Below, in pieces: positions 7,301-64,000 of a stretch of DNA of 64,000 nucleotides. Numbering within the stretch: the first letter of the stretch is position 1; each line of letters begins with the position of its first letter. Origin of the DNA: Ceratodon purpureus (taxonomy: Eukaryota > Streptophyta > Bryopsida > Pseudoditrichales > Ditrichaceae); NCBI GenBank assembly GCA_014871385.1, contig CM026430.1:5872630-5936629 (forward strand). Reading direction: 5' to 3'. The position numbers and the translations under genes are program-made. The notes beneath the pieces are model-generated. The model did no database searches. It was not told the DNA's origin and saw only the letters and a list, made by a program, of their open reading frames with translations.

Positions 7301-8280
7301 AATTTGATTTAAATGAATGCCGCTTTTATTTCAATTTCTTATATTAATATTTACAACTTTTAATCATTTATTGTGTTTCATGTTTATTCTATTTCATTTC
7401 TATAAAAAATTCATAAATTGGTACAATGAAGGTGGCAAGGCGTAAATTTGATCATGTGTGTGTTATAAATGCATTAGTAAAGAAAAGATGCAAATATTTG
7501 TGTAGACCTAGTTTACAACATTGGATGAAGAATTCAAGTAGAAAAGGCTATTATAGAAAAGACTTTCTAGTTCATTTAGTGCCTACACTATTTTAGCTAC
7601 AATAATCAATATGTCATGGATGTCATGGCTGTTAGAAATGAAATTAAGTTTCTAAAATTTCTACCTTCACAAATACCATAATTTGACATATTAACACCAC
7701 AAACTTTAGGATAAAAGTAATCCAAGAACTCTTTTTGAATTTGTAGATGAAAACAAGGAAAATAAAATAGTTTGAAGGAAAGAGTGCCATAAATATAAAT
7801 CCCAAAGGCAACTTATAATGTGCATATATTAGAATAAATGTAATACTCAAATAACATTTTGTCTGAGACATTTATAAAAAATCTATAATGATTATGTGAT
7901 ACTTTAGGGAAAAGGCTATAAAATGGATAAGAAACCAAATCAAGAAGTATTGAGTATCAAAGCCATCTCAAGGACAGAAGTTGGAGAAGTAATCAAAGAC
8001 TTTCTCAAGGCTTTTGACTCTATGTGGCCGATTAGAACAATCTTATTGTAAGGATGAATCTCATTTTGCCACGTGGAATTTTTTCCAACTAGTTCTAATT
8101 AGTTTTTTATTTTTTATTTTAAAAATGTTTTTGGGTTCTATTTTTCCCTGGATAAAAATCCATTGAGGGTTGTATTTTTCTCTCTACAATGAAGTTCATT
8201 CATTTGCCCCCAAAAAATTAAAAAATCAAGAAGTATTGATGTACTCTATAGAAATTGCCACAACTAACAATTGAGATAAT

Positions 8281-8325
8281 TACTAGGGCTACGCATGGTT
8301 ACGCACAATTGTCGACTAAAATCAT
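8281..8325. repeat. Dispersed repeat end, copy 1
   Basis: The sequence from TACTAGGGCTACGCA through ...GTCGA..AAAATCAT recurs with few changes at 15564-15610. Read on the minus strand, both copies end GCGTAGCCCTAGTA, i.e. with a CTAG-T terminus like that of Helitrons, but no clear terminal hairpin is visible, so the class stays open. Confidence 0.5.
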
Positions 8326-39616: not shown

Positions 39617-40250
39617 TCTGAACTCCAGGACTCGTTATGATACGAAGGATAATTTTGTAACAAGAATTATGAAACCCAACCCCAACTTGATTCTATAATG
39701 TCCGCTCGCGTATCTTCAATCTGCAGGCCAACTTCCAATTCGTCGGTGGCCATTCTTTGAAACAACGCAAATGTTTAAAAATTGTTGCGGTTACAATCAT
39801 TGCAGCTCTTATCATCGCATACAATAACAAAGCTACAAAGAATCAGGACATTTCTTCAAGTGGTAGGAGCTTTACCGTCTCCAGAAACTTGTGTCTCGGG
39901 AAAGCCTGAGTTGAGTCTCGATGAAGGATAGTGATTTGAATCGCAGAATGCGTCGATGGGCTGCCAAGAGTACTACAAGGCCCACGATTGTCTGTATAAG
40001 TGGTGTATACAAGAGATGGGAATAGACAATCTAAAGTACCATGAAAGTTTGTGGGATGCTCAGTAACGACATACCTTGAAGCTTCAAACTACCGGTGTTC
40101 CAAGATGTCACTTCACTATAACGTGCGGTATTTGGCGCATTACCACCTCCTTCAAATCTAAGTGCACTTCGAAGTGTTTACCGCGACCTTCTAAGCATCT
40201 ACTGACAGGACTGAGTTAGTCCACAGTTTGCATCCCCTTTCATTGACAAC

Positions 40251-41335: not shown

Positions 41336-42596
41336 CTTCTACTTTGACCATTTTACAGGGACGGATTAAGCTCCCTTTCTAGACGGTGGCATCAGTTTCG
41401 GATGGGTTTTGGATGTTCAGCCAGAGCTTCGAGAGCTTGTCTGTACACTGAACGACTTTAACAATGAATTGTGTTGTGGAGAAGTTGCTTTTGCAATCGA
41501 CAGGCGGACAGGCGATGTTTTATTTTGATTGCACTAAGTTGTACTAGGCGAGGGAATTCTAGCGGGGTCACTGAGGCCCTGGCGCTTCACTCTCTGAGCA
41601 CTTCAATCCTTTGCTTTCTGAATTTGCTTCTAGGTCTCCTCCACCTTCAGCTGCTTACTAAATGTATTGAGATCTAGTTGCCGGCATTCCACTTCAATTC
41701 CACCTGCGCACCACATAGTGCCTGTGGATTTTGTTTAGTGTCTTTCTCGAGATCAGCTTGTTTGCGAGTGGCCTTTCCTGCACAAGTGATACCGACAAAG
41801 ATTGACATTGTGGAGCATTGCTCCGACGCTCTGGCCAAGTGCATTACCCCGCTGTTCAGGCTGCCAGTTCACTTTCATCGATCAAGTAAGCGTTTTCCTT
41901 TGAAATCTATGTTCGTAATAATAACTGTGTATGGTCTTACTTATTCACCGGCTTATTGTACCCTAGTTCTCTTTGAAAGCAAAAGTCAGAACTTAGGTTT
42001 ATGGTGTTGCGCAATCTTTTATGTGTTGCAATAGTATTGTGCTCTGTACTTACTGCTACACGAAGGGCATATGAAGATAATCCTTGTGCGTCGTATTGAT
42101 CAGGCTGTCGATTTAATTCTACCGAAAACGTGAATAGTTATCAGTAAAATGCCCAGTAAATCAACAAACAAGCCTTTCTTGCGTGCAACAGCTCTAGCAA
42201 ATGCTGTCACTGTTGCGAACGAGACATTGAAATGCATATATTTAAATATATAGGATTTATGTTGTCTCTTCACCTTAATGAATCATATGTAGGAGATGAG
42301 ATTTACGGAATAGACCTGTCGGTGGATGCCACCAAGACGGTTATAATAATTGCTTGTGGGTGGAAGTATGACTTATTTCTCCTCACAGGATTGAAGGGGC
42401 ATGCGACATCGGAGGTCTGAAGCTCTGACTCGGTACAACTCATTACTGCGTGTTTCCAATGGTTGCAATTAGTTGATCAATCCTCATGCTGCCTGCCAAA
42501 TGTTCCATTCTGCATGCCAAGTTAATTCTTTGGAATGTTTTGCTACCTTGAAAAGTGATCGAATTACCGTGATTCGTGCAGGTATAAACGACCACA

Positions 42597-44212
42597 ATGG
42601 CCGGGTCTGATGAACTCGTGAACTTTACATTATCACACATAGGGGCGACTTCGAACACCGCAACCCCTTTGGCCCAAGGACACACAAAAAATGGAGTTGA
42701 AGAGAAGATGCCTTCTCCCGGTTATATGCAAGCCGCCAAGAGAACAACGCTACCTGCTAGTAGGGAGGTTGCACATAATAAGAGATTTAGGGCTGCAAAG
42801 TGGAAGGATGAAGAAAAGACCTCTCTACTGGTTGAGAAGCTAAGTTTTTTCTGGATCCGCCTGCAAGCGTCCTTAGGCCTAAGTGCATTTGAGTATGACA
42901 AGAGCTGGTCTCATTATGTTTCTGGACAGCTTGGTAGAAATGTGACGTCATGCCAGCAACAATGGGACAGCCTAAGGAAATCTCTAAAGATTATTTTAGA
43001 TTATGAAAAGAAAATCAAGGATTCTGAAGGTACATGTGATCATGTCAGTTTTTGGCAAATGAATGAGGAACAGAAGAAAATTGTCAATGAACAGAGGAGC
43101 AAAGCCAAGCTTGAGCCATTGCCTCAGGTATTCCAAAGGGCGTGGTGTGTACTCATGGATACGATATATCAGATTGATGCTGTCAAGAAAAACACAGGCA
43201 AGAAAAAATCGGTCGATGCAAATCGTCCATCGTCATCTAGAGCGCCTCATATTGCTTCGACAATCACAGACTCAGATGATTCTCCACAACGACCTCCTCA
43301 GCCTGAATCCCTTTCCCAGCCTTCCTCTCAGCCTGATCAGTATAGCGATCCTATGGATCCACCTGAGGTGCCTTTGGTGATCAGTGGTCAACTTGGTAGC
43401 CAACGATCTGAAGACGAGGTATTGGGCATGTCTGACGGTCACCTGATCTCTGTGATAGCTCCATATATCAACAAAGAGATCGGAGATGCCCTCAAGACTC
43501 AAGTCATCCCTTTATTGGGAGACCAGGAGGAGAACGAGCAGAAGAATCATCGAGAGGAGTTGCTCGCCGTTGAAGAAGAAAAACTAGACCTGAAGCGCAA
43601 GGAGATGGCGCTATTGGAAGTCGTGCTCGAGCCGCTTATTCTCAAGCTGCAGATTCGGGAGGAGGAGGAGCAGAAGCATAAAGTGAAGTTGCTTGCCATT
43701 GAAGAAGAAAAGCTGGCTCTGAAGCGCGACAAGGTGGCTCTGAATCGTGACAGGCTTGATTTGGAGCGCAAGAAAATGGCATTTAAGTCCAGGCTAGCAA
43801 ATGCGACTCCGGCTCATCCTGAAAGTGGGATGTATTTTAACTCTGGACAGCAAGCCAATTGTTTTCAGATGCCCCCAAATGAGGTAAACCATCAGCCAGA
43901 TTGTGGAAATCCTGAAACTGGGATGTGTTTGAACGTTGAACCGAGTTTTAACTCCGGACAGCAACCGTCGAACTGTTTTCAGATTCCCCCAAGTGAGGTA
44001 AACCATCAGCCAGATTGTGGAAATTTTGAACTGTATGTACGTATTGATTGTAGATAGATAATTGTTTTTCTTGCAATATGCATGATAATGTATAATCTTT
44101 GAACTCACGTTTTTTTTCTCTACCTTTCCTGCAGGACTTTTCTTTCCCCCATGGCAGTCCTCCCTTCCAGAGCTTTCCCTTCTCGCAGGATGGATCAACG
44201 AATTTCCAGTAG
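42597..44212 (+). CDS. Trihelix (Myb/SANT-like) DNA-binding protein with coiled coil
   Basis: Two exons: 42597-44036 and 44135-44212 (GTACGT donor, TTTCCTGCAG acceptor, phase 0), 505 residues. Without splicing the frame ends after six more codons; with it the protein gains a tail ending FSQDGSTNFQ, which looks more natural. Residues about 66-180 form a trihelix-type DNA-binding domain (KWKDEEKTSLLVEKL...SWSHYVSGQL...CQQQWDSLRKSLKII). A Ser/Pro-rich linker (200-260) follows, then the LISVIAPYINKEIGDAL module (283-299) shared with the genes at 37994 and 63323. A long charged coiled coil (about 310-400) contains a duplicated unit (REELLAVEEEKLDLKR / KVKLLAIEEEKLALKR). The tail has two copies of an FNSGQQ..NCFQ.PP.EVNHQPDCGN repeat (411-438, 441-476). 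Probably a nuclear transcription regulator; target unknown. Confidence 0.75.
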
Positions 44213-45511
44213 GGATCGCAAGGAAACTGGAAGATTGATAGCTCGCAATCAGCTGGTTACTGACTTTTTATGGTTACTGATTTTTATGATTAAAGCTGAG
44301 TAGGCCATGCGGCCTTCAAAGAGCATTTTCACTGATTTTTATGGGTTAATGGCCTTTGGCCTTTGACCTTTATTTACTCTGGTATTATCTATACCAGAGT
44401 TATCTTTTTATATATATATATAAACTTAGAAATACTGAGTTTGATGTTGTTCTTGTTGTAGGAGAGTAAGAGTTGGTTTGTCTACCTTCTGACAGCCTGG
44501 ACAGTACCACTGGATCATGTCAATCTATTTCCGGTTGGGCATGGATTTGAGCCCCTGTAGAAACACTCTTCATTCGTGCCACCTTTCAAAAAAATGGCGT
44601 TCTTCTTCTTCGTCATCCGTATCCCCGTTCTTTTATCATCTCTGTATTCTGTCTGGGGCTGTGGGATTTAGGATTACATCGAGACCCGTCTACATTTGAG
44701 CACTATGATTCGTCTTCTTGCCACTGTGTAGGTAATCTAGCGGCTAAGAAGAAAGCTAGCGTTGAACGCAACAGCTTTGCCGCATGAAGAGGCTCGTCAT
44801 TGACACACACGGAGAATCTTCGAGTGTGACTAATGGCTATAAAGAGACTAGTCTTGCTATGTTGTACATAGACTTTGCCGCTCTATGCAGCTAGCAATTG
44901 GATTGCTGTAAGCTGCGACTTATCGTTTGGCTAGATGGGGAGTCTGTGTGTCTGTTTTGGGGGATTCGGGTGTTGGGCTTGCGTTTGCGTTTTGCGTGAT
45001 CCAGCCGATGGTTTCGATGTTAATTGGTTTGCAGGTAGGAGTGTGGTGAGGATCAAGGTGGAGTTTGAGTTTTTTCCGTTAAGTTATGACTCGGTGGTTG
45101 CGTTCGATCGTCATGTGGTTTCTCTTACTTGGAGCGTTGCAATGTGGTGACGGCTTGCTCGTTTGTGAGCGCGTTTACAGTGTTTTGTTGTGATTTCTGG
45201 TGCCTTATGTCTGGTTGACGAGTTCGAGTCGTTGAGATTGGCATTCTGAAGTGTTGCCCTTCATACCCAGCATATCTATTAGTTTCCTCACAAATATTTT
45301 GAGTCTGGCAGCTGAAATGTGGCGCATGTTTTGAATAATAGATCTCTCATTATTCTAAACGACTGTGAGGATCAGAGTTCATTTGAGAAGTGGCATGAAA
45401 GTTTGGTATTATGTTAAATATCACGAGTCACTGATCACTCAAACCTGACCGATATTCCTCATTACCAGTAGCCACTTATCGTCAAGGAATTTCCTCGTAA
45501 GCCATCATTAA
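44213..45511. other. Intergenic region downstream of the trihelix gene
   Basis: No gene recognised. The right part contains the repeat described at 45281-45421. Short frames (for example 44935-45150) have no recognisable domain. Confidence 0.5.
45281..45421 (+). repeat. Copy of the GH5 3'-UTR region
   Basis: Matches 36109-36254 in the same orientation: TTTGAGTCTGGCAGCTGAA, TTTTGAATAATAGATCTCTC, GGTATTATGTT in the same order, with small gaps (roughly 80 percent identity). A remnant of a segmental duplication of the GH5 gene end, or a shared dispersed repeat. Confidence 0.75.
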
Positions 45512-45861
45512 CCCTTAAACGTCAGACCCAGCCCCAGGGGCTGGGTTTAAAGGAATAATTGGAGACAGAAGTTTCATTTCTCAACCAAATCAAGCGAGAC
45601 TTGTTGCGTTGGAAAGCTATTGAAAAAGCGATCTAAATTCCAAATTTTCGCCTCATTTGATAGATTGTGGAATCGTTGGTAAGCAATCAAAGTTATCAAA
45701 TTGAACAAGTTTTGAGGTTGGGGCAGCTGAAGTTCAGCAATGCTCCAATGGTACAGTGCTACAGTGGGGCGCTACAGTGCACTGCAGAGCCATATTTGGG
45801 GGAAAAAATATTTAGATTCCGTCCGGGCTGCCCACCCAGGACCCAAAATGACGTTTAAGGG
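45512..45861. mobile_element. piggyBac-like MITE (350 bp) with TTAA on both sides
   Basis: A perfect 13-bp terminal inverted repeat (CCCTTAAACGTCA at the left, TGACGTTTAAGGG at the right) with TTAA directly outside (45508-45511 and 45862-45865). CCCTT-type ends and a TTAA target are diagnostic of the piggyBac superfamily. Just inside the left end, 45526-45546 is a perfect hairpin with 10-bp arms (ACCCAGCCCC and GGGGCTGGGT) around one A. There is no coding capacity, so it would depend on a transposase in trans. Its ends differ from those of the large element next to it after the fifth base. Confidence 0.87.
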
Positions 45862-45865
45862 TTAA

Positions 45866-45882
45866 CCCTTTAGTGCCCAGGG
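45866..45882 (+). repeat. Left terminal inverted repeat of the giant piggyBac
   Basis: CCCTTTAGTGCCCAGGG, preceded by TTAA, which is at the same time the right TTAA of the neighbouring 350-bp MITE. Confidence 0.9.
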
Positions 45883-46710
45883 TTTTTTTCCAGCAACTCT
45901 GATTTTTAGCGTTTTTTGCGCTATTCTTGGAATTTACAAAAATAGGTTCGCATTGTTGGATATCTAACCATATAGTACTGTAGCCAAGGGTAGTAGAATA
46001 CTATGGGCAAAACATGGACCCAATCCAACCGTGGGAAGTTCAAGTGTATAATCCGTATATGGGGGACAAAAAGTTTGCAGTTTTGTGTATTTTTCCAGGG
46101 GGGGTAAGTTTGGAACCCCATAAATCTCGGAATAAATTTCTAAATTTAATAAAAGAGCTGTTCAGCTATGTCCCATGTTAAAATCTCCAAGATAAATCAA
46201 AAACATATATGTGCAAAATTACAAAAAGATTTAGAGGAATTTTAAGATTCAGTCATGAAAACAATGTACTGTTTAGGGTGTTTTTGGTACATTGGGTCTC
46301 ATTCATATGACTCAAATGTAATGCAATCCACAACGGTTGAAAAGTTAGAATGGAGGCATAAAAGAAAAAAAGTAAAAAAAAATCCTCAAATCTACTGTAT
46401 TTTCCTCTAAATACACTATATGTACACTATTATGGCAATACCGTAGAAACAACGCTGTACATCTTTCCAGCAGTCAAACATGAGTCTTCTTTCTAGACTA
46501 TCATCCACCTCCGTTACCAAAATCAACTGAAACAGCCACATATATGTCCAAGTGACTCAAATGCAAAACATGGCTCCATTGGGAACGTTCAGAGAACAAC
46601 CATCCCCTGTCCAATGAGAATGAAGGAGCTGCGAATTCCCAATGTCAGCTGAAACCGTTGCAAGGAACCACTGTCAGCTGAAACCAGGGAAAGAAAAAAA
46701 CGGTTGCACC
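45883..46710. other. Left subterminal region of the giant piggyBac
   Basis: AT-rich, non-coding. It would contain transposase-binding subterminal sites, but I see no clear repeat of the terminus here. Confidence 0.5.
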
Positions 46711-48742
46711 CTACTTGGTCACTCGGAAGCTGTAAGTGTCCACTTGGGTGAAGGTCATCTTATCCCCACACTTCACCTTGTTCTCCTTGCAAAACTCTCT
46801 CCAGCCAACAGTGAAGTGGCACTGCGTCTGAGCTGCATTCGCAGTCACAGCAGAAGAAACTCGGACGGTGGACTTGTCGCCAAACAATTTATACTTGAAT
46901 CCATCGAAATTCCCTGACCCCAGCCTGCGCCAAAACTTGGTTGGAATGTCCTACAGCAGGAAATACACACGTTAGACAGCAATCTTCCTCTTCTCTCTTG
47001 ATCCTACACGCTAAAGGAATGTGTAACTACATTCAAGAATTGTTTCAGAATTGCAAAAACGAAAGCAGCCTATGACAGTCTATTCCAATTCTCCGTCTCC
47101 ACTGCATCATTCACATTCGAAACCAAGAGCTCACGATTCGCATAAATCAAAACGGACACTAATTTCTGTACAACACCAACAAAGAATCAGCCACATGAGC
47201 TGAATTGCTCGCCCTTTCACCTACACAACACAGCAGGATTCAAAACACGGTACAAAGACAATCCTCATGAACCCAAGATGCCGACGATCTGACCTTACAC
47301 TCGATAAAGTAAGACCATCACTCCCGCAACCGAGAATTCTAAAAAAACCAAGCAAACGCAAAACCATCTCACGCTCTACACAAAAAACAATCCCATCTTA
47401 GCAACTGTTTCAGCCACTCCATATAAAACATACTCGAGGCCATGACTCACAACACACTCGTAGATCAGTCCTGTAGAAGTTTGACCTAAGCCACTCCCCG
47501 GATTCACCAACGACCTCCGAATCCTACAACAATCTTCCAACAAAACCCCGAAAGCAATCCCTCACACGAGAACAAACTGACCCACGAAGCCACACTCATC
47601 AAACTAAAACACAAGTGGCGCTAATCAAACAGCAAATGAAGTAGGAATGCGAAGCACACGAACGTAAGCACTTGACAAGCCACAGGTCAACAAGCTTCCC
47701 AGCAAAACGATGATCGCACACATAATTACCGACCAGAGCTCTCTTCACCTTCGCAACCAGAAACACCCTCCCCTAATCACCAGCTCAAACCAATACCCAT
47801 CTCAATGACTTCACACAGAACACCCAACTCTCAAATCCCGAGCACAACAACCAAAGTAGTAATCAATCTCAAAAACCCACCAAAAATTTCACCCTCTCTC
47901 CCACACAGAGTGCAATGAACTTACGAGCTTGTGAATTCGGAGGTGGCTCGGGCGTATAATTTTAACAAAGGCCGGTTGCAGCCCCGGCGGGTGGTGCACA
48001 TCCGCCACCAAGGTCCGCTCATCGACTGCCTCGAAAATGATGAAGTGCCCTACTCCAATTCCCTGGTCCTCGAGGAACTCTCTCCACTCTGTGCCGATGC
48101 TGCGGGCATCACCTCCTTCACCGCGTAGAACCTTCAGAGGCCACTCCCGCTGGCCGGCGATGGAAGTAACGATTGTGCAGTTCCTCCCCCCTGGCCAGCG
48201 GGTTTTGGCGGTGAAGTGGGCTGGAATTTCCTACAAAACAGGGGAAATCACGAATTCAGAGGGAGTCGAGAGAGAATGTCTTGTCCACTGCAGATTCATG
48301 AGAGTGTACTCGAAGAGAACCGAGCTGCTGCGTGCTGCTGCTCCTGTGCGCGGCATCTAGAGGGAGTGAAGAGAGAAGCTTTTGACTAGCCGGGTACCAC
48401 AGGGACACTAGATTCCCAAAGCGAAGGAGGGGAATGATGACAAGTATCCCACATTCATTAAGACATCCTGAAGAAGGCTCATCAGGCCCCCTCGTCCTGA
48501 CGTCCTCTGTGACCCCCTCACCTCAAAGCTCCACACACTCCCCCCTCGGCTTCAATCCAAACAAAACACTAAGACGAACAGATCGTGATCAGTTCTCTGC
48601 AAAACGGAACAAGGCGGAAACACATGGATTGGAACAAGGAGCTCACCAGTACGTCAAAGCTCAAACTGCCAGTGATAAGGGTACTGAAGTAGGTGACCCC
48701 GCTCTCCACATACGGGGTAAGCGCATCTTCGAAAGCCTCCAT
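46711..48742 (-). CDS. Two-B3-domain (REM-like) DNA-binding protein, cargo of the piggyBac
   Basis: Exons 48647-48742, 47925-48230 and 46711-46950 join in phase 0 at GT-AG sites to give 213 residues. The start is MEAFEDALTP; the first B3 domain begins in exon 1 (YFSTLITGSLSFDVL) and runs through IPAHFTA, WPLKVLRG, TEWREFLEDQGIGVGHFIIF and ADVH. A second B3-like domain fills exon 3 (IPTKFWRR, STVRVSS, FTVGWREFCKENKVKCGDKMTF). B3 domains are plant-specific DNA-binding folds; tandem B3 proteins are typical of the REM group. All three exons are open, unlike the neighbouring captured fragments. It shares orientation with the transposase gene. It could be expressed cargo or a recently captured gene; the short first intron region also offers another ATG at 48356, which does not splice cleanly. 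Confidence 0.8.
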
Positions 48743-49208
48743 GAGGGATCTGTGAGAGTGAGAAGAAACTGAAGCTGTGTGAGTGAGAGGAAACTGAGAG
48801 AGGAGAAAATGAGAAGTGTGTAAAAAGAGTGAGAGTTCTGAGCATATGAGGGGAGCAAAGTGCAGGAGAGATCATGGGGCTCAACATTGATGTCACAATT
48901 GGGTTTAGGGTTGAGCAATTACTTACTGAATCTAACGAGATCACAATTGAGGATTAGTGTGTCGCATCGCCATTAATAACTCATCATGAGATGTGACAAT
49001 CTAATATATGAGAAGTGACAATCACAAAAATCACCAAACCACAACACAGCAGTGAGTACCGACAATGTAACATACACAGTATTCCATGAACATACACAGT
49101 ATTCCCTCAATCTACAGCATGTTACATGATGATTCATGCGAAGTCAAATTGAAACAATGGAGATTCGCTGATCATTAGTTGTGGCGTATTAGAAGTGTTT
49201 GGAATCAC

Positions 49209-49380
49209 CTGTGTTCGTCCTTCTGCTCGCATTCGATCTTCAACATCTCTCACATCCAGTTCCTTCTTTGCATAAAAACTCGAAGCCTCTGTTTTTTGCC
49301 GTTCTGCAACTTCTTTCTCTTTCAACAAAGGCTGCAGCTCTTTATTCAGGTATTGCAGCAACCGCCGGTGCGACAGCAAT
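49209..49380 (-). pseudogene. Exon fragment: duplicated piece of ECA3 exon fused to unknown coiled-coil sequence
   Basis: The 62 bp at 49345-49406 repeat 51668-51729 with one mismatch and include an intron end and the ECA3 exon start ([12 protein letters not shown] in the ECA frame). After CCTGAA the match stops and the ECA frame hits TAA. In another frame the exon reads LLQYLNKELQPLLKEKEVAE..., a charged coiled-coil-like segment ending before a GT donor. I do not recognise that protein. It looks like another captured and rearranged exon in the element. Confidence 0.6.
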
Positions 49381-49594
49381 CTAAAACGCCCAAGAAAAAG
49401 GAAACTAATACTCCACCAAGAAAATGGCCCTAAACTTTACAATGTAAATTGTAAGCCTGCAGAAGATGCACCAATTCAGGATAATCCCTAGTTCGCCCAG
49501 GATAACGAACTCCGACACTTCAAAAAGACTTCCTAAATCTAACAATCTACGATTATCTCTACTGTACAGTACAAGAGCACACTGCTAAAAAATA

Positions 49595-51662
49595 TCAGGC
49601 AGCAGCCTTTTTCGCGTGTTCACTTCTCATCTTCAATTCCTTCGTAAACATACGGGGAGCAATTGCCATGGACATCAACTCCTGAAAGAGAAGCTTGCAT
49701 GCATATGGGATGTGCACCTGCCACATTCTCAAAACAGAGGCAATTCAGAATAGAGATCCAGTGCAACAATAGACAAGTCAGAACTCAATAAATTAAACTT
49801 GCTGTTAGGAGAACGGGAAATGAACACTCACCTGTACAATATCGGTGTTGTTTTTACAGCCTCGGCATTCATAAGTATTCTTTTTCAAATTAGCGATGGC
49901 AATCAGTCCACAATGCTCACAAACGTGAACCCGGTAGGCATCGCTCTGATCGAACAAGCGTTCCTTCAAGAAATGAGCTGCACCATGAGCAATCATACAG
50001 TCTCTTTCCATTTCTCCGAATCGCAAACCTCCATCTCTTGATCGACCTTCGGCAGGCTGACGTGTCAAGATTTGCACAGGACCCCGACCTCTTGAATGAA
50101 TCTTATCATCAACCATATGCTTAAGCCGCTGATAATATGTAGGACCCAAAAAGATGTGCGCAGTGAGCCTTCGGCCAGTGTGCCCATTGTACATCACTTC
50201 AAAACCCCTCATTTAATAGCCACACTTATGCAGAGCTTTACTGATGTTGTCGACCTACAGAACTCGACAAATAGGTCAATCAGTCAAAGAGAACACTAAG
50301 AGTCATCACATTAACCAAAAAGAAAAAACAAAAAAAAGAAAAAACTAGGAACCAAGAAAAGCTCTCACAGATAACACAGTAGTCTTCCAAACAAAGTATG
50401 TCTTGGTAAATAAGTCATCTTATAACTGATTTACTTGGAAGCGCAGGAACTTACAGTGACATCAGTGAACGGTGTAGCATCTCCTTCCTTACCCATATGG
50501 GCAGCCACTTTGCCCATGATACACTCAATGAGCTGACCAATGGTCATACAAGATGGGATAGCATGGGGGTTCACGATGATATCGGGTGTAATTCCCTCTT
50601 GTGTCCATGGCATGTCTTCCTACATGTAAGTCATTCCGACAGTTCCTTTTTGTCCATGCCTACTACTGAACTTGTCTCCAATTTGAGGAATCCGGATAGA
50701 CCGGACTCTGATCTTGACAAACCGCAAGCCGTCAGCATTGGTCGTTAACAAGACCTGATCAATCATACCACTTTCACTGTGACGCAAGCAAGTACTCTGG
50801 TCCTGCTTCGTGTAGCGCTGCGCTTGGCTGGCATTGTCATCCTGTGGCAGAGGCGTAGTTTTGCCAATGATAACATCTTCACCTGACACTCGAGTGCCCT
50901 GCACAGGAGAAAATCTCATCTTTACACACCATGCTACTACTGCCAAGTATAATGAACAAGACAATTATCTAATTTTTAGATTCATAAAAGAAAGCCCTGC
51001 TGAGCTACCGCTAGCCGAAGCTTCGCCGAGGTATCAGCACGAGCAATAGAGGAACAGGTAACGACAAACAAACGATCAGAGTTGAAGGTCACAAAAACTT
51101 ACAGATGGGGCAAGGCCATCATCATCAAGCTTGTCATACGAACCATGCCGCATGCCCTGTGAGGCAAAAATTCGTAGTTTCGGTATTATCCAAACAGCAC
51201 CATAGAAAGTCATCAAATTAAATTAAATTAAATTAAAACAATTTAAAAATAATAGATAAATTCCTTAAAACACAATTTTGACCACAACTTCAAAAGCTTC
51301 AAATCAGAGGAAAAGCAGCTAATAATCAGAGGAAAAGCAGTCCGACTAACCCGTCACAACTTACAGTGGTGTTCTCTCTGTTCGGTCTCTCAAATTCTTC
51401 CTTGATTAGAGTACCTTGCTTCTTCTCCTCATCTCTGTAATAGAAGCACAACAAGAGAATGTGACATTATGCCTTTTGCATGCTAACAACACCAAAGCAA
51501 TCACTCTTTCACCAATTCATGCAATTGCGTAAAGTTTGTAAATAAAGTCACAAACTCAAGATCAAACTCTTACCTGTAAGATCTGTAAAAGATGGAGCGG
51601 AAGAAACCCCGATCAATGGAAGACTGATTCATAATGACAGAATCCTCTTGATTGTAGCCGGA
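49595..51662 (-). pseudogene. RPB2: Captured 3' half of RPB2 (RNA polymerase II second-largest subunit), two nonsense codons
   Basis: Exons 51574-51662, 51365-51434, 51103-51156, 50455-50898, 49832-50254 and 49595-49717 join in phase and read as the C-terminal portion of RPB2: [115 protein letters not shown] and the zinc-binding [22 protein letters not shown]. The front half of the gene is missing; it starts at a fusion with ECA3 sequence. In-frame TAG at 50620-50622 and TAA at 50213-50215 replace conserved Gln codons, and the conserved SRMTIG reads SCMTIG. Retained introns show DNA-level capture, not a retrocopy. It cannot make a working subunit. Confidence 0.95.
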
Positions 51663-52819
51663 AGTCCTTCAGGTATTGCAGCAACCGCCGGTGCGACAGC
51701 AATCTAAAACGCCCAAGAGAAAGGAAACTTACTCTTCGCTCAAGCTTATACAAAGGAATTCACACTTCACAAGAAAGTATATGCTTTTGTGTATAACAAG
51801 ATGAAGACGAGAAACAACATTTACAATGAGGATGGTGGCGGTTATTAAGTTTTTAAATGTTATTAAGGACTATGCTTTCGTGTTTGTCTCATCCACGTGA
51901 GAAAACGAACTCTAGTTAGAATGTGTAGATGAGGCACCTTGAAGTAGTAGATGGCTCCACACAAAATACCTCCATGAGCAGGATCTCGAAAGTGACCGAT
52001 ATTTACCACCCAAACTAGTACACAGACTACTGCAATAACCTGATATACAAGTTCAATGTCAACATTAATTATGAAATTATAGTTTTGACACGAACAGCGC
52101 CTGACTTAAACCCAAATGCAAGTACTGTATGACAAGTAAAAGCTACCGGCAAACGCCTGCACAATACGAAGCATTGTAATAGTGACAAACCTTAGACAGG
52201 AATGACCCGAACTCATCAAGCTTTTTCTTCAGGAGAGTCATTTCCTGCACCACAATAATATACCAACCAAATCATTACCTAACGTACCTTGAGACACCCT
52301 AACAGGACCTCAAGGCTTCAAGGCTGCAACCACAACGTCAAGAGCCATATCAACAATCATTCAACTCTCCAGCCCTGAAACTGAGCTAATAAGGCTGAAT
52401 TTCTCTGAAGTAATGCCAGGATTAAAAAAGAAATGCATATACTCACAGCCACTGACTCCGACATAGCATCCCGAATCTTCCCGGATGCGGTTTTTGAGCC
52501 AACACCGGTAACAACTGCCCTTGCTCGCCCCACTGTTACCACTGTACCCTACAAATCCCCTGCAGTATTAATAGCGACACAAAATCCAACTCTTGATGTG
52601 ACTAAAACGAACTTCGATGCAATTAGCTATTTTTATAAACTTCATTCCAAAAAAATAAGATGGTTAGGATGCCAACTATTTGTATATGAACAAAATATAG
52701 AACAAATGCATACTAGGATTTTTAACCACTTACTGAAAAGAGTATGCTCGTCTTGTCTTGATACACTGCCTTCTACACCATTGTTTGCTCAGAACATTTT
52801 GCCACAGAGCAGCTTTCTC
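51656..52819 (-). pseudogene. ECA3: Captured fragment of ECA3-type ER/Golgi Ca2+-ATPase
   Basis: Exons 52734-52819, 52447-52548, 52191-52244, 51938-52039 and 51656-51703 read as consecutive parts of an ECA3-like P2A Ca2+-ATPase: GESCSV...[63 protein letters not shown] and AIPEGLP (the transmembrane segment 4 Ca2+-binding motif). The first exon contains an in-frame TAG at 52773-52775. Where the family has a Leu in [12 protein letters not shown] this copy has Pro. The phosphorylation domain (DKTGT) is missing because the sequence switches to RPB2 inside CTTCCGGCT. Non-functional cargo in the giant piggyBac. Confidence 0.92.
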
Positions 52820-53318
52820 CTGTGATAAAAAAGGTTTGACAAACTTTGTAAACCTTAAAATATCTCCCAAGTATGCAAAAGCGACATAAGAAAACATACT
52901 AGGGGTTGATGCACAGAAACATGGTTAGCATAAAATCCACATCATATGCCAACCTCTACTTTGAAACAGCACCTACATCGACAGAAAACACAGATCTTCC
53001 TAACCATGCGTGTACTTACCAAACACAGAAATTGTGATGCCATCAGAGTAGATAATGGATCATTGCAAAACGAGACAACACACTGACTTGTGGATACACT
53101 TGTTATCAGTAGAACGAAACCCACGCTTCACTGATTTTATGGGGGAGAACAGGGGGTTTGTACAAAGCAAAATGAGCTCCCCATAGCTGCAAGAAATCAC
53201 GTATTTTTCCGGAACTCAACTAGATGAGCACTATCACTGCCATGCAAGCAAAAAAGAAATTGGCACATACATCTAAACCATGTGACATTACACTATACAA
53301 AGATTACACTATCTGAGT

Positions 53319-53563
53319 TTACAAGCACAAGTGCGGACTGATTGCATTGAAGTCGGGGAAGTCTCGGGCTCCCTTCACCGAGTCACCGCTCTCAGTTTCA
53401 ATCTGAGATAGCAACATATACAAACACATGTCAGAACATGAAAGTGGATTCACAATTGGGTTAGGCATCAACTAAACATGGTTGAAGTGACGAATCAGCA
53501 TGGCTCACCTCCACCTTTTGAGCATTTTCGGGAAGAACTTCAGCGTCCACAGTTTGTCCCACT
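53319..53563 (-). other. Two unassigned candidate exons 3' of the transposase
   Basis: Candidate exons 53509-53563 and 53319-53402 (TTTTGCAG acceptor, GAG|GTGAGC donor, ATCTCAG acceptor) read VGQTVDAEVLPENAQKVE then IETESGDSVKGARDFPDFN... to a TAA. The frame looks protein-like, but I do not recognise it. It begins only 20 nt past the transposase stop codon, so it may be an alternative 3' end of that gene or another captured fragment. Confidence 0.35.
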
Positions 53564-53582
53564 CTGCAAAACCGCAGTTGTG

Positions 53583-56500
53583 TCAAATTCGGAGGCCCTC
53601 ATGGGCAGCCAGAAAACAAACATCTGGACAAACTGCTTTTCCCCTGCACCGTTTACAAGCCCACACCGTTCTACGCCTGCAGATGATACAGAGCCTCCGT
53701 TTGCCACTGCGGGAACCGTAGTGAGCGTTCCAGGTGTGAAGAGCTGCAACTCCCGGTGTAATAGCTGTAGGTAAACGATTTGGACGGCGTCTTCGGAGTG
53801 GTGGTGTGGAGAGAGGGTCCTCGGGAGGTGCGTTCTGGTTGACAGGGGGAGGATGCATGTCAGCAAGGGTGACAAATGTATCAGCAGGTGGGTTGGGGAT
53901 CCCACATCCAGGCGCCATGGATGCAACTGATTCTTGCGACAGAATAAAATCCTCTGTGAGTGCAGATCGTGGCAAATCTCCAGTGGACACACGCCCTGAA
54001 GGGGAAGACATGGATGGAGCATGGCCGTCACTTGGAGAAACGAACCCCTTCTTGCCAAAATCAGCTGGGAGTGGTATCTCCATTAAAGCATGGGCAACTT
54101 CAAGCTGGAAATCCCGATGTACCATGGGCCTCAAGCCGCGTGCTAGGCACAAATGCTTATGCATGATGAAAGCATTCGTGAGTGTGGTATCCAGGCAGAA
54201 GAAGTAAACCCGGTGCCACCACTTCTTGGTGTAGATTTGGATAGAGAAACTCCCCCGCAACTGGTCCTGAGTGTCGACTCCCCGCATGTATTTCGAATAC
54301 ATCAGCTGGATCGGTGAAGTTGGTATTCTTCTCTCAGCACCACCGGAATTCCTTGTTACAAACATCCCGTACCTCTTCACAGGATCAGCTGCAGTTGATA
54401 GGAAGTGAACCCCCTTGGTATCGTGCCAGTGGATGGCAGACATCTTCAAGTCCTTGTGCATTCGGATCTGTAGCGACCCCCTCACTCCTTTCGAGCCAAT
54501 CATGTGGAGGCTAGAGGGGTACCCCACCCGCCCCTCACGGATTGTTCCAACAGCATAGAAACCACGGGACAGGAGGTCATCAAACAACATGGGACTCGAA
54601 AAAAAATTATCCATCACCACAGTGTGATGACGGTTCTCCCATCCAGATGTTAGTCGAGTGACGACCCCTGCACCGCTCCCACATGCATGCAAGGGCAACC
54701 CGAGGATGGCTTCGTTTGAGGCACTGACATACACCTCAAGGTTTAAAACGTACTTGGTAACAGAACAAGCCATGCACCAAAGTTTTATACCATGTGTCAC
54801 GGGCTTCGCAGGCATGAACTGTTTGAAGCTGCAGTACCGACCATTGTATCCCACCATGCACTCGTCCACACAGAGATACTCGGATGCATTCCAACTCTTC
54901 TGATAATTGACAATGAGATTGTCAATGAGCCACCGCACCTGTCCGATAGGGTCGTACCTGGGATCCTGTTTGTTATGCACTAGAGTTGACTTCGGCACCA
55001 CATGCACATGACGTAGTATGTGAAGGAATCGATTCCTTGTCATGGTGTTCGCAACCTCACTGCAATGGAGTGCTTCAGCTTGAACGCTCCAGTAATCTCG
55101 CAAAGTCGGCTCGTCTCTCACGGCCATGAATGCACAAATACCTGTGAACTGCCGAAACTCTCTTCGGGTGATGGGCTTCTCCCTCTGATTGCCTGCTGAG
55201 GAGCTCGGTGCAGTAGCCTTGAAGATGGCATAATTGTTTGCCTCCTTTGCAAGCTTCTGCTGAATCTTGTCGTCCCAGAGCTGTAAAAAGCAGTGAACTG
55301 GCGAGGGCACATCTTCTCCACTCCACCACGTACAACCAGGTGTATGGCCTATGAAGCCATCCCTGGGCAGCATACTCCATGTTCGAGCATGCCAGTTGCA
55401 ATCGGCATAGTGGGCGTCAAATGTGGATTCCTCCAATGTCCAGGGTCCATGCATCCTGTAATCGCCAAGCTCTCCAAGTATGGTGTAGATGGACTCATCA
55501 CGGTCAGGATCAGACTCCCCTGTCGACATTCCCAGACGCGCGCATCCACCTGCGGCCTCGACATGGCTGGTCGGGTCTGGAAACCACTCAGGATCAGACT
55601 CCTCTCGTGGACTCTCCAGAAGCGACCCCTCACCTTCTACAGCATCAGCCCCCGGCCCACTTGCCCCCGTCATACTTGGTTGGAGAAGAGTAACTCGCAC
55701 CTGTGAGGTCCGAGCTTGCACACCGAGGCTTGGAGTAGAGCAATCCATGGTGAAAGTCCGTAACCCCAGCAAATCTCCAAGACAGAACGGGTCAGCAAAG
55801 GCATCCACGAGGACGTTCTGAATTGCAACCAGCTCCAACTCCGTTGACAGTGGAGGCACCCACGGAATGCAGAGGTTGACAGGAACGAGCTGTACTCCAA
55901 GATGTCTCCCGAACTCAACCTCAAAGCATACCCTACCATCCGGACCATCTAGAACCATCTCTCTAACAATACCAAACACAAACTGACTTGGATTTGAAAT
56001 GTACTCCCCGCCCCACTCTAAGCAGAGAGCTTGCACTTGAATGCGGCGTATGTGGTTCCTACCTTCCTGGCCGAGGTCGCTAAGACTGTCTGTGGAATCC
56101 CCTTCGCAGATGTCGGGCATGTCTGCGTTACAATCTGCCCACCCTCCAACTGATCCATCTTCTTGCGAGGGGGACATTCCTTTGTCATCGCAGGGCCAGA
56201 CACCGACAGGCTCCAGAACTTGCGGTGGACACACCTGAGTTCGCCCATCGCTTTGACCCTCTGTAACACCAGCCCCTGAAATGTTGTCGAAATTCATTGC
56301 TCCAAACTCCTCCGCCCTGTCGTACAACTCCCTCTCCGACACAAGCAAATCCGTGCCATCAGCTTCGACACTCTGAATTACAGGTGCCATACGTTGCGGG
56401 CTGAAGTTCGGCCAGAAATCTGCAGGGACAACCACAGAACAATGAGTCAGTCAAAACGAAACCAAACAGGAAGACCAAATCATGGAAACCACATCTCGAA

Positions 56501-59500
56501 ACCCATGTTTCATAATCCCAAACAAAAGCCGTATATACACAAATAACGACGTACAATCAGTTTCCACAAATGAACAAACATCATATGGACCATGTTAGAG
56601 TAGAAGATACTTGGTTCCTTTTATGTCAATGCAGTCTAGCACTATGCATTCAGAATTGAATCTAAAATTCTTTTGAGAGAGGCCGAATAGATCTGATGGG
56701 GTCACTTGCAGTGGCTCAGCCCATAACTGATTATGTTCAAGCAAATGTTGTGGCCATTGCACGCCTTACTTCTTTGACTCCAGCATTTAACGGGTTGCAC
56801 TCTATTTGATGTACAGCAATTCTACAATTGAGAAACAATGGGCCTACATTTCTTACAAGTGAATCTGAATATGTGGAAGTCATTTCATAGTTCTCTTACC
56901 TGGGCCCTCAAAAAAACATTGGTTCCACCTAATTGTTTGTTCATTAAATTCACAAACATGAAATCAAACTACCAACCACCTGATGCAATAAGTCAAACTG
57001 TTATGAAAAGGCCATGGATTCGTGGAGAAGGGGCGTACCAGGCAGAATCTGCTCGTCTTGCATTGATACACCCACCCAGCTGTTGTCCTCCATCGACTGA
57101 GACCCCAGCGAGAACAGACTGCGTCTCAGCCGTTTACCAGGGGCCCTCATGCACAACACATAGGACCTCCGCTGCGGTGGTGTGAAGTCCTTTGGATCTC
57201 GGAGTTCAACGTCGGAGCAGACCTCCTCCTCGACGACGATGGGCATCTTCTTACGTGCCGCCCGTTTCCTCATGTGCCCCGAGGCAGAAACCAGAGCTCG
57301 TTTTTTCGCTGCTGCGACTCTTATGGCAGGGTCTTCAAGAATGGGCTGGCCATCATAGCCAACAGCAACGCGTCGAGTAGCTCTCTGCCGAGGCATCCGG
57401 GGGGCCCTTGTCTTCTTAGGTGCCTCTGTTTTTTTTTTTACTGCACAAAATACAACGGCAGATCATTACAACTCTAAGCAATTACATGCTACAGACCATG
57501 ACTTCCCCCCAAGCAACAGTCCCTCCAAAAAATTGCAAAACCACCATACTTCATTCTGAACGGATCAAGGCCACATTGAACTCATTTTGGACAGCCAGTA
57601 CATGGTTGCTTTAGGAAGTTGTTGACAGTAAAAGTACCTGGCTTTGATGGCTGACCCTTGGAGCATTCTCCTACCTCCTTCAACTCCGGTGACTTCTTCG
57701 AGTTCTTCGAAGCTCTCGGCTTAGCTGGTGTCTTTGTCCTTGTCTCTGTAAAGAAGGAAGCAAGTGATATGTGACATTCCAAATAGCAACAAAGGTAAGG
57801 AACATGCAAAATAGCGAATAGAACTTAAGAGGACAGTGGAATGTGCACACGCTTACCTGCACTAGTCCTGGCCCTTTTCTCAGTTGGTTTTTTCAGCGTA
57901 GCATTTGGTCTCGCAGCGGCTGGTGCAGCAGGTACATCAAGGTCGGCATCTGCCACGCACAATGCTCAAAGATTAGCGACGGTCTCACATGCATAGAGCA
58001 TACCAACAGGTTCAAAGGATTTATAGCATATTCACATAGAACTAACTCCCGGATCACTTCACAGATTTACCTGCAGATTGAATGTCCTTCATGTTGGTGC
58101 TGATGGCACATGGAGGGTACACTTCATCATCGTCTCGGTAATCATGGGGCACATTTTCTCTATCTGAAGACAACGCGTAATCTGCAAATTGGTAAATTGG
58201 AAAGTCAGATTAAATCAATGCAAACAACTTCTTTAAAACAAATCGATCCAAACATATACAGTACATGGGATGATGATGTACCTGTAAGCAAACCGAGGTC
58301 AAATTGTTCCAGAGTTGACAGCCATGCATAAGGACAACCTGCCAAGAGAGAACACATGCACAGTGAGTACACTGAAGCAATGCACATTTTTTTAATCACT
58401 ACAAATCCTATGAAGGGTTCACAATCTCTGAATCTCCCCTTGAATTCACTGGTGCAAGCAACAGCAGACGAGAGTCGAATGAAAGAACCCGCACAGTGCA
58501 TATAGATTAACAACTGCATGAACAACCTCGAAGCATACTCACATCCAGAACTATGAACCCAACGTTTGATCTTATCGGGAGCAATGAACCACACTCCCTT
58601 GCAAGTGCTGATGGGGTTGATTTCCTCGACTATTCCTTTCCCCTTATCGACTGCTCGTTTCTCCTTCTCGACATCTCCTTTCCCCTGTTCATCGTCATGA
58701 CTGATTACTTTTGCATACCAGTGGGACATGTCCTCACCCACAGCTGCTCCTTTTCTCTTGTCGACCTCTCCTTTCTCCGGATGATTGTCACGTTTGCACA
58801 CAGGTGGGAAGTTAGGTGCACTGTTTTGACCAACAGATGCCCTTTCCCCCTTGCCGACATCTCCTTTCTCCTTGTCGATGTCTCCATTCCCATGCTGTTG
58901 GTTAGGGTTAGTCACTGCTGGGAAGCGAGGGCCGGTGTTCTCCCCCACATCAGAATTGACATGCACCGCCGGCTGCACAAGTCTATCGATCAAACCTGTG
59001 ACACAATCCAACCACCAAGCCTTTAACTCACATTGAATCATTTCACAAAACTGCACAGAGTGATGAGTAGCAACAACTTGAAAGCAGAATCAACTCGTTA
59101 CCTGTGACATAATCCACCAAGGACGTCGACACTGGAATCCCTTGTGTAGACCCCGACATGGCCAAATTCTGAATAGCTGTATTCCCCAGCACCGCACTCG
59201 TCTTCTCCGACATGGCCAAGCTTTGAGTGACCACGTTTCCCATGCCATGACCAAGCCCCGCAGAAGTCTTCCCCTGCACAACCAGGTCTGCCTTACCCCG
59301 TCCGAGAACAGCACCTGTCTTCCTCGACATGGCCTTCCCCTGCCCAACCTTGTTCTCCTTGCCTCGTCCGGACACCGCATCTTTCTTCTCTGCTGCGCAA
59401 CTACTCTTCCGAGTATACTTCCTAACAGGCTTGTTGGTGATGGCACTCATTCGAACTGAGCCACCTCCTGCACCTACTTCCCCTTTCTCGATCTTCACGC

Positions 59501-60492
59501 TTAGTATATGCTGACCTCTTCTGCAAGAGGCACTGACGTTTAAATCATCTGTTTGTGCAGCATTCGATGGCATAGATTCCGCATGCTCACGAAGTCCTCC
59601 ATCCGTCATAGCACGCCCATGGCTACCCTCCTTCACAGGATCACATGGCAAGAGTTCTTTGTCTCTGTGCAAAATCAAATGTGCGATGGAGTTAGCCAGA
59701 ACATATGACATCCAGAAAGACCTCTGCAACGACTGGAATGATCTATGAAATAAAAAAACCCTGAGTATAAGCAGAAACGCACATTCTCAGTCACAAGAAT
59801 CTTAATAAACATACAAAACATAGGTAACATGCTGCTATCATAGAAAATAGAGTCAGTAGTATCCTCTTGAAGACAGGGTGACAGTTCAACCCTCGCCTAG
59901 TTTCGTTGTATATTTCAGAGAAGAAACTTGATGATTTGCATCGGCTATTCTAATGTTTTCTCTCTCTAATTATCACATCTCTCTAGATTGACTGGCAACA
60001 TGTTGCACGACTCAACATCCACGTCAAGCAGCCCCATACCACCTAGAGAATTAAGACCATCATTCAAGAGCACACTGATTCACCTGACTTGAATTCAAAA
60101 TTCCTCATCTGTCCGAAACCCATGGGTCCTCTAATGATTCAAGCTGAAGTGGCCCTCATCAGCACAGGATGGAACAGGTTCTTCACTGGGTATAACGAAA
60201 CAATGTTTAACCAATTTCTTCCACATCCTCACAACGAGGACAAAACCAACGAGGACAACTGATACCCTAAGTGCATGACCACTATCTCGACCGTATGACC
60301 TAAACGAAAACTAGATTGACATGAAACCAGATTGACATAAAAACGAAAGACCTGCATAAGGACTAGTGCTTACCTTTCGATGTTGCTTGATCTTTCGACA
60401 TGATTCTCGGCCTGTGTGACCTGCCCTTCGCCTGGATCCCCATCAAACGTTTGCGACATGTCTGCATTCGCAACACCTTCAACTGGCTCCAT
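53583..60492 (-). CDS. piggyBac transposase with a 635-residue multi-exon N-terminal extension
   Basis: Nine exons: 60374-60492, 59102-59664, 58543-58995, 58282-58338, 58071-58181, 57857-57949, 57638-57745, 57039-57440 and 53583-56419. All are GT-AG and in phase: 1580 residues from the ATG at 60492. Exons 1-8 encode a low-complexity basic/acidic region with repeats (MSRKTGAVLG; KGDVGKGERASVG) and Lys/Arg clusters like nuclear localisation signals. Exon 9 holds the DDE_Tnp_1_7 (piggyBac) transposase: the catalytic triad is Asp in CVDECM (1154), VVMDNFFSS (1239) and YMRGVDTQDQ (1351), with the usual spacing. A Cys/His finger closes the protein (C-x2-C-x7-C-x2-C-x5-C-x3-C-x4-H, 1546-1575), which in known piggyBac proteins binds the terminal repeats. 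No stop or frameshift. An ATG at 56390 could start a shorter, transposase-only protein. The gene lies inside matching TIRs, so it may be the autonomous source. Confidence 0.9.
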
Positions 60493-61725
60493 CAAATTCC
60501 AAGCTTGAACCGAAGTCAGTCACTCCCTCGCATGTGGATCAACAAAATCCCTCACCAAAAAGCCCTAAAACCCTATCAACTCCTACGATCTTTGCTATCC
60601 TACCCCTGTGTCTCTGAATGTGTTGAGCATCGTCTCCACTTCTGAGCCTCTCCATCCCCCGAGCCATGTCATTGCGTGTTGGAGGTAAGAGCAGGGGCAA
60701 CTCCTTGGCCCTGTCATGGCCTCGTTATCTACGTCCCAAGGCAAGAAATCCAGCTACACATGACAACATTATCCCCCCGAATTAGCAGATGAATTTCTAA
60801 ATGCCATCCCTGTAAACTCTTATGCAATGCAGGATCGACACATGCTCATTGACACCGTAGAATCATAGATCTAAAACATAAACAATGCACAGACTCATAA
60901 TGGATTACCCTAACCATGCAAAAACTCGTAGATTAGAACCCTAAACAATGCACACACATGCTTCATTCACCAACATCAACATGGTAATCAAGATTCTGAA
61001 ACCCCCTCAATCCCCCACATACCCAACACAAGCTCTCTAAACCTGGCGCTCCCTCATAAACCATAGCCGTCAAACGAGAGAGAGAACTCAATGCAGAGCT
61101 CAGATTCCAACCTCCACGACGACATCAAACCTCCAAACCCTCCATCGTGATCCGTGACTAATCCCCTGGAGCCACCTACAGCACCTCAGAAACAGTTGGT
61201 AGCACAAGAAAAATCTAAGGATCCACATGCACAGGCTCATACAGGAATATCTGTGGGCGAGGGAAACCAAGGCAGAGACAACACTAGATGCTGCTCGCAC
61301 GAACATCGACCTCTCTCGAGGAGCAGCTTCACGAGGACGATGATCATCATTAGTGACCGTTATCGAGAACTTTTCTGGGAACTAACTGGGAACAAGTTCG
61401 AATCACGAGGGGAACGGGCTTCCCAGATCCCGGAAATTTGCTGCTTGACAGAAGTTCATCCCACCGAGGCCACTCTCTTTTGTACGCTTTTCTCTGTATT
61501 CTCTTCTATTCTGCTTATCTTTTGCTCACAGATTGTCTCCGTATATTGCTACAGTGACGTATTCTTGTCGATTTGAAGCCTCTACACTACTCCGAATTGA
61601 GATCTGATTGTTGCATTGTGAGCCCCTCAGAAGAACGTAAATCTGAACAGGTATAATCGAGATCAAATTCATTTTGGATTTTGAGTTATTCATCTCCAAC
61701 TGAGTTTCGCAACCACATTATGGTT
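60493..61725. other. Right subterminal region and presumed transposase promoter
   Basis: About 1.2 kb between the transposase start codon and the right terminal repeat. It has no recognised gene; a plus-strand open frame at 61154-61576 is not supported by any motif. It should contain the minus-strand promoter of the transposase gene. Confidence 0.5.
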
Positions 61726-61742
61726 CCCTGGGCACTAAAGGG
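61726..61742 (-). repeat. Right terminal inverted repeat of the giant piggyBac
   Basis: CCCTGGGCACTAAAGGG, exact reverse complement of 45866-45882, followed by TTAA at 61743-61746. Confidence 0.9.
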
Positions 61743-61746
61743 TTAA

Positions 61747-63322: not shown

Positions 63323-64000
63323 TTAGCTGATACGAAGGTAGTGTTGCATGAGATTAACTTCACCATGTGACCCATCATCTGCAATGTGGTCTTCTTGGCC
63401 GGCCAGACTTGTACTTGCTAAGTTCAAAGGGGCCACAACTTGATTGTACGCCGAAGTACTAGCAAAACTCCCCATGATAGTCGCCCCGTGGTGTGTGGAT
63501 AGCATATTATGTTTCTCATGCATCAAGGCCAGCTTCTCTTTTTCTATGGCTAACATCTTCTCTCGATACGTCTGTTCCTCCTCTTGTCGACTTTGTAAAA
63601 CATGCCTAAGTTTATCTTCAATCAGTTTGTTGACAAATGGAGCTATTCTAGAAATGAGGTCGTCGTTAGACATATTCGATACCTCAGCGTCCTCAGATTG
63701 TTGTAGATTGCCTTGAGAAGTACTGCGTAAAGACACGTCCAATACCACATCTTCATGACCTTGGCTACTTTGATCAGTAGTGGCTAAATTGCTGAACTGG
63801 GCTGCTGTTGAAACGATCGTTGAAACCAGCTGGTCTTGAGATGGCCCAGATAATATATAATTGGCATCCGAAGCTTGTCCAAGTTGAATTAAATCGGCTG
63901 AATTGATAGTGATAGTAGTTGAAGGGACTTGAATCGAGGGCGATGGAAGATTTGCATCCACTTCGATGCTTGTGGCCGTTCCCTTGATGCTTGCGGTTCC
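63323..64000 (-). CDS. Trihelix-family-type protein, C-terminal part (5' end beyond window)
   Basis: The frame is open from the right window edge to a stop at 63323, so only the C-terminal part (about 225 residues) is visible; no start codon is needed inside the window. A Ser/Thr/Gln-rich stretch leads to DDLISRIAPFVNKLIEDKL and a charged coiled coil (REKMLAIEKEKLALMHEK). Both match the C-termini of the ORFs at 37994-39616 and 42597-44212, so it is probably a third member of that family, with its trihelix domain expected upstream of the edge. The last part (THHGATIMGSF... to LRIS) is unlike the other two. Confidence 0.7.
   Translation of the reverse strand, partial: GTASIKGTATSIEVDANLPSPSIQVPSTTITINSADLIQLGQASDANYILSGPSQDQLVSTIVSTAAQFSNLATTDQSSQGHEDVVLDVSLRSTSQGNLQQSEDAEVSNMSNDDLISRIAPFVNKLIEDKLRHVLQSRQEEEQTYREKMLAIEKEKLALMHEKHNMLSTHHGATIMGSFASTSAYNQVVAPLNLASTSLAGQEDHIADDGSHGEVNLMQHYLRIS

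Follow-up and report, generated by a model that had tools for sequence, protein, structure and literature searches.

Structure of the locus

A 64,000-nucleotide stretch of the genome of the moss Ceratodon purpureus (C10:5872630-5936629, the whole of which is called the window here) holds, at positions 45862-61746, a transposase gene and pieces of several host genes enclosed by two terminal inverted repeats (TIRs) and two TTAA sites (Table 1). Judged from the DNA itself, this segment is very probably a single insertion of a large autonomous transposon of the piggyBac superfamily. Its features are the TIRs, the TTAA sites, an open multi-exon transposase gene and a host-gene cargo that includes introns, together with sister insertions elsewhere in the genome that likewise end at TTAA.

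The inverted repeat is perfect over 17 bp and begins with CCC (CCCTTTAGTGCCCAGGG); the element measures 15,877 bp from TIR to TIR, with TTAA directly outside each end, as the initial annotation of this DNA had described. When up to three mismatches are allowed, the 64-kb window contains these two TIR matches only, and shuffled sequence gives a mean of 0.03 (100 shuffles). A repeat scan of the element interior revealed no long inverted-repeat pair besides the TIRs, the next best being 26 nt at 77% and lying partly in an open reading frame (ORF). Scans of the window for tRNA, Rfam and tandem-repeat matches found none at the ends, and an origin of the ends from such sequences was rejected on these grounds.

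Table 1. Coordinates of the element and its parts in the window (aa, amino acids).
Feature	Position	Strand	Remarks
Left TTAA target site	45862..45865	.	doubles as right TTAA of small neighbouring element
Left TIR, 17 bp	45866..45882	+	85 exact genome copies
Left non-coding end	45866..46710	+	93-99% to other large copies; ~85% (first 0.6 kb) to 1-kb elements
Three-exon gene, two B3 domains, 213 aa	46711..48742	-	exons 48742-48647, 48230-47925, 46950-46711
Coiled-coil exon fragment, presumably SMC3-like	49137..49348	-	longer version in C1 and C3 copies; candidate donor on C13
62-bp Ca-ATPase stretch	49345..49406	-	direct repeat at 51668-51729
Host RPB2 fragment, exons and introns	49403..51662	-	one in-frame stop; 95% to C6:51070088-51072306
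SERCA-type Ca-ATPase gene fragment, exons and introns	51657..52830	-	98%, candidate donor C10:4956060-4958807
Open frame, 955 aa	53583..56450	-	DDE domain (PF13843), Cys-rich C-terminus
piggyBac transposase gene model, nine exons, 1580 aa	53583..60492	-	no internal stop
Transposase exons 1-5	60492-60374, 59664-59102, 58995-58543, 58338-58282, 58181-58071	-
Transposase exons 6-9	57949-57857, 57745-57638, 57440-57039, 56419-53583	-
Right non-coding end	60500..61725	+	common to other large copies
Right TIR, 17 bp	61726..61742	-
Right TTAA target site	61743..61746	.

The transposase gene

The open frame at 53583-56450 spans 955 codons with no stop and is matched by PF13843 (1.1e-74). Against the PDB, it matches piggyBat (2.9e-24, residues 364-768) and a second piggyBac-type transposase (5.3e-19). 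The intact transposase ORF of the initial annotation is free of stops, but it is the last exon of a nine-exon gene model and not the gene as a whole. Together with eight upstream exons it forms a single reading frame; the splice donors are GT and the acceptors AG, and the last seven introns are all of phase 1. The first 649 residues of the resulting 1580-aa product match no Pfam family.

Three aspartates of the window transposase (P0001; Asp 529, 614 and 726), which we take to be the catalytic triad, align with Asp residues of piggyBat. They are kept, as is a cysteine cluster at residues 921-945 that was read by eye, in P0002, a protein of 966 aa (JGI metagenomes, 9 contigs) that is 45% alike over 89% of the 955-aa frame. 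P0002 was the only relative found in a large protein search for the transposase, and a search of viral contigs and phages found none. The transposase would cut at the TIRs, paste into TTAA and move transposase-less relatives in trans.

A family of elements with the same ends

The whole genome assembly (362,488,568 bases, 151 contigs) was searched for the exact 17-mer, and 85 copies were found, 38 of them forward and 47 reverse; the reversed pattern, used as a control, occurs 0 times. Neighbouring 17-mers face each other in 26 pairs, compared with a mean of 0.1 pairs under 20 kb on random placement, and the further copies with the same ends that the initial annotation had proposed to look for are thereby at hand. 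Eighteen of these pairs are 915-1,026 bp long, and the remaining eight measure 5,065, 6,664, 6,689, 9,031, 11,966, 14,804, 15,877 and 16,152 bp. Among the 18 pairs that were read (all eight large and 10 of the 18 small), TTAA is present on the left in every case and on the right in 17. Querying the genome with the right end, for which 40 of 120 candidates were scored, and with the left end, for which 40 of 128 were, added pairs with imperfect TIRs. Examples among the candidates scored are C4:3641125-3645346, C5:9052102-9055432 and C6:69328143-69331676.

Two sister copies resemble the window element. In the C1 copy (C1:21515332-21531483), the similarity to it is 98.8% across the right-hand 10.1 kb and 97.7% across the left-hand 2.4 kb, and the C3 copy (C3:4644575-4659378) aligns with it piecewise, at 82-98%. 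At their own loci, both have the transposase, the B3 gene and the ends arranged as in the window element, and beyond the TTAA sites the flanks of the copies are unrelated, with no alignment save a few bases. The window and C1 copies are the closest pair, differing by about 1.1% (99/8,929 sites). When projected onto the C1 and C3 copies, the nine exons remain in frame and encode 1580 and 1555 aa, respectively, each with a single terminal stop, and the exon length changes in C3 are multiples of three. The ratio of non-synonymous to synonymous substitution rates (dN/dS) relative to the window gene is 0.38 for C1, a value that rests on few changes (76/7,100 sites), and 0.33 for C3; for the transposase exon, the ratios are 0.36 and 0.29.

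A genome search with the transposase, in which 48 of 1,157 candidates were scored, listed 56 matches. At least 11 of these, at 73-100%, belong to the window family: the window, C1 and C3 copies, a C6 copy (94%, one stop), a partial C7 copy and two broken C6 loci in six pieces. At least 45 others, at 34-54% and in about 40 places, form a second clade in which many members have internal stops. The family and the second clade stay separate in a tree of 26 sequences, which took open frames of at least 590 aa and left out five shorter loci, including L032 of the window family. When compared with the transposases of this genome, P0002 shows greater similarity to the second clade (up to 52%) than to the window family (44-49%). 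One member of the second clade, L060 (C5:11911500-11921000), lies in a TTAA-bounded element of about 8.7 kb (L060 positions 661-9402), the TIR of which has the same first 13 bases (CCCTTTAGTGCCC) as that of the window family; for L061, only a left end was seen within the stretch read.

The C6 copy with the 94% transposase lies between both family ends, in matching orientation and 53.8 kb apart (C6:28462855-28516668). The locus may represent a far larger element, or an element that contains nested insertions. The idea that the C6 locus at 28.47M and a C7 locus at 17.26M represent one large element with the same insert was not supported, because only about 110-130 bp are shared beyond the part of C10 type.

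Host genes carried by the window element

All cargo of the window element lies on the minus strand, and candidate donor loci can be named for host gene DNA between its TIRs, as is characteristic of Pack-TYPE elements. The proposal of the initial annotation that this is a giant piggyBac carrying host genes is thus upheld by the matching TIRs and TTAA sites of the sister copies, the open transposase gene, the candidate donors and, as described below, one cargo present in two insertions. The B3 gene (PF02362 at 1.8e-17, two stretches) is open in the window, C1 and C3 copies. A match to the B3 region is also found at C10:4799155-4814475, where it and a family right end are 14-15 kb apart on opposite strands. 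A plain B3 donor is not clearly indicated, given that the right end is 14 kb off and the strands are hard to reconcile with a single simple copy; the locus could be a rearranged copy or the source of the B3 gene.

The remaining cargo consists of gene fragments. The coiled-coil fragment, which we take to be SMC3-like, has no Pfam match, and its candidate donor is C13:13779333-13780179, which the SMC3-like part of the C1 copy matches at 97%. The RPB2 fragment contains RPB2 domains 6 and 7 (8.5e-105 and 2.7e-36) and matches yeast RPB2 at 2.4e-183. Its only long match besides itself is the C6 gene, which aligns over bases 1-2256 of 2261, introns included, and is open at the position of the in-frame stop in the cargo. 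In the exons, the two differ at 20 of 1,149 sites, affecting 16 codons synonymously and 4 non-synonymously, without exon indels. A reading of these RPB2 changes as C-to-T (methylation) was tested and not borne out. The Ca-ATPase fragment, presumably ECA3-like, matches the E1-E2 ATPase family (3e-19) and SERCA2 (1.7e-38), and the corresponding part of the C1 copy is likewise 98% identical to the candidate donor locus on C10.

Cargo in other copies

Four further large copies, C1a (5.1 kb), C6a and C6b (6.7 kb each) and C9 (9.0 kb), share with the window element a left segment of about 0.99-1.8 kb and a right segment of 1.0-1.5 kb. Between these ends lies other DNA, without a transposase as far as the alignment shows. 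C6a and C6b carry one and the same K+ transporter gene (PF02705), for which C9:10809748-10813189 is a candidate donor (97% over bases 79-3513 of 3,536), with more distant relatives on C12 and C3. The two copies are 97.0% identical from TTAA to TTAA and do not align beyond, so the cargo and the ends moved together as a unit. In the C9 copy there is a class-V aminotransferase fragment as well as a repeat-rich stretch, and the middle of C1a consists of 2.4 kb of other DNA. A GH31 fragment is present in the C4 copy (12.0 kb), which could represent a 1-kb element split by about 11 kb of other DNA. The cargo of the C3 copy differs and has as its candidate donor a gene at C6:24632531-24634498 (93%), pieces of which also occur in the broken locus at C6:43.97M; the gene has no Pfam match, and we assume it to be UTP6-like.

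Origin of the cargo and competing explanations

Comparison of the window and C1 copies indicates how cargo could have been exchanged. Positions 3737-6057 of the C1 copy (2,321 bp, SMC3-like and Ca-ATPase) are absent from the window, where 62 bp of Ca-ATPase and 2.26 kb of RPB2 take their place before the Ca-ATPase resumes, leaving the 62 bp present twice. The joins overlap by TTCA between the SMC3-like and Ca-ATPase parts and by CCGGA between RPB2 and Ca-ATPase, and gene sequence lies on either side of the joins examined. Because the C3 copy shares the long SMC3-like piece of the C1 copy (96.9% over 1,325 bp), the C1-like state is probably the older one. A C1-like copy with SMC3-like and Ca-ATPase cargo would accordingly have lost 2.32 kb from its middle and gained 2.26 kb of RPB2, with the 62-bp Ca-ATPase duplication as the trace. 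Short overlaps at two of the three joins, combined with this duplication, suggest template-switching repair. Less surely, cargo would be gained when template switching to unrelated host loci fills a break or an incomplete repair inside the element.

The view that the two TIRs belong to separate small elements bracketing host DNA by chance can be set aside with near certainty. The 17-bp ends do recur in eighteen 1-kb elements; however, each of these has both ends, whereas the window has one end per side. The facing pairs speak for one unit, and so do the C1 and C3 copies, which repeat the transposase, B3 gene and ends in order at other loci, with unrelated flanks that argue against segmental duplication. 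Another explanation would place gene-fragment-carrying transposons (a Helitron, a MULE or another type) as nested insertions within a piggyBac element of normal size. Nested insertions are common in plants, the C4 copy resembles an interrupted 1-kb element, and C9 has its repeat-rich stretch. This explanation is nevertheless improbable, given that the examined joins are within gene sequence and that no long inner inverted-repeat pair was found, although no search was aimed at Helitron ends.

The neighbour model proposed for Pack-CACTA elements, in which the outer ends of two compatible nearby elements move together with the DNA between them, deserves more weight but is still unlikely for the window. 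It has been argued for several superfamilies (PMC8903248, in excerpt), and the cargo of C1a, C6a, C6b and C9 lies between two intact ends, as the model expects. In contrast, the RPB2 piece of the window derives from a different chromosome and is enclosed by two older pieces of cargo, with 4-5-bp overlaps and the 62-bp duplication, and the window has no internal TIR at up to three mismatches.

Several observations weigh against a single mobile family whose cargo was exchanged by template switching. Only 52 of the 85 TIR sites close into the 26 pairs, leaving 33 unpaired, and one of the 18 pairs read (L026) has ATAA in place of the right TTAA. In the transposase gene, the exon-9 acceptor of the C1 copy does not read AG, and the exon-2 acceptor of the C3 copy falls within an alignment gap. 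The third join, from Ca-ATPase to RPB2, has little or no overlap. Finally, the RPB2 cargo differs from the C6 gene at 6.0% of non-coding sites (64/1,072), a larger difference than the 1.1% that separates the C10 and C1 copies, and the C6 copy is therefore unlikely to have been the immediate template. If RPB2 entered the element only after the split of the C10 and C1 copies, the template would be a diverged homologue rather than this C6 copy. Should C6 be a sex chromosome, the gametolog of the other sex would be the natural candidate; C6 is 110,524,308 bases long, and an excerpt on C. purpureus describes a 360-Mb genome with U and V chromosomes of more than 100 Mb each (PMC8000587).

Taken together with the single-insertion reading of the window element, these results would fit an autonomous, gene-capturing piggyBac lineage in moss, an account to which we give slightly less than even credence. 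In this lineage, cargo would be swapped by template switching, the B3 gene would be a stable second gene, cargo from a probable sex chromosome would be carried to autosomes, and the C6 copy of about 53.8 kb may carry far more.

Relation to known elements

The window element shares with piggyBac transposons such as piggyBat and the T. ni piggyBac its TTAA sites, TIRs starting with CCC and PF13843, and the C-terminal Cys cluster read by eye may correspond to their Cys-rich domain. In contrast to these, it is 15.9 kb long, has a nine-exon transposase gene with a 636-residue N-terminal part lacking a Pfam match, carries host-gene cargo and resides in a plant. Like Pack-TYPE elements (Pack-MULE, Pack-CACTA and others), it holds host gene fragments between TIRs, draws on several donors and represents transduplication, but it belongs to the piggyBac superfamily and bears its own transposase, whereas Pack-TYPE elements are non-autonomous. 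The initial annotation's comparison with Pack-MULEs thus applies to the host-gene cargo and its candidate donors and fails for the transposase. C1a, C6a, C6b and C9 come closer to Pack-TYPE elements, being non-autonomous and having only the ends in common, as far as the alignment shows. Teratorn is also a giant piggyBac-type element; however, it is fused with a fish herpesvirus, whereas the extra DNA identified in the window element consists of host genes. Pfam searches of the submitted element ORFs returned transposase, B3, ATPase and RPB2 only, plus a sub-threshold Myosin_N match (0.05), with no dedicated herpesvirus search.

As excerpted, the literature places Teratorn at 41-182 kb and reports no Pack-MULEs above 7 kb (PMC6431247), names MULE, CACTA, Mariner, PIF and hAT as superfamilies with Pack-TYPE elements (PMC8903248), and describes gene-shuffling MULEs as mostly small and without transposase (PMC8903248; PMC6431247). 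The word piggyBac is absent from a 2026 review (PMC13317346). The initial annotation considered piggyBac elements to be rarely described in land plants. Because piggyBac-like elements of plants are already mentioned in excerpts of published papers, and PiggyBac matches appear in a fern repeat table, a piggyBac in a plant is unusual but not unknown. A literature search judged at the level of listings, with most subscription journals outside its scope, found no gene-capturing piggyBac in plants.

A gene-capturing piggyBac family with large cargo and an open transposase gene would add a superfamily, and an early land-plant lineage, to plant gene shuffling. Several stages coexist in this one genome, namely cargo-poor ends, sister copies with differing cargo, one cargo present twice and donors nearby, and the way in which cargo is gained is therefore directly testable.

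Neighbouring features of the window

A 358-bp element bounded by TTAA occupies 45508-45865, abutting the left end of the large element and using the same TTAA; its perfect 13-bp TIR (CCCTTAAACGTCA) differs from that of the large element. Elsewhere in the window, three long open frames (37994-39634, 42588-44054 and 63326-64000) have in common a C-terminal motif, approximately IAPFVNK/IAPYINK, that was recognized by eye, and they possibly represent a dispersed gene or transposon family. For the first of these frames, a Myb/SANT-like match and, below threshold, a kinase match were obtained.

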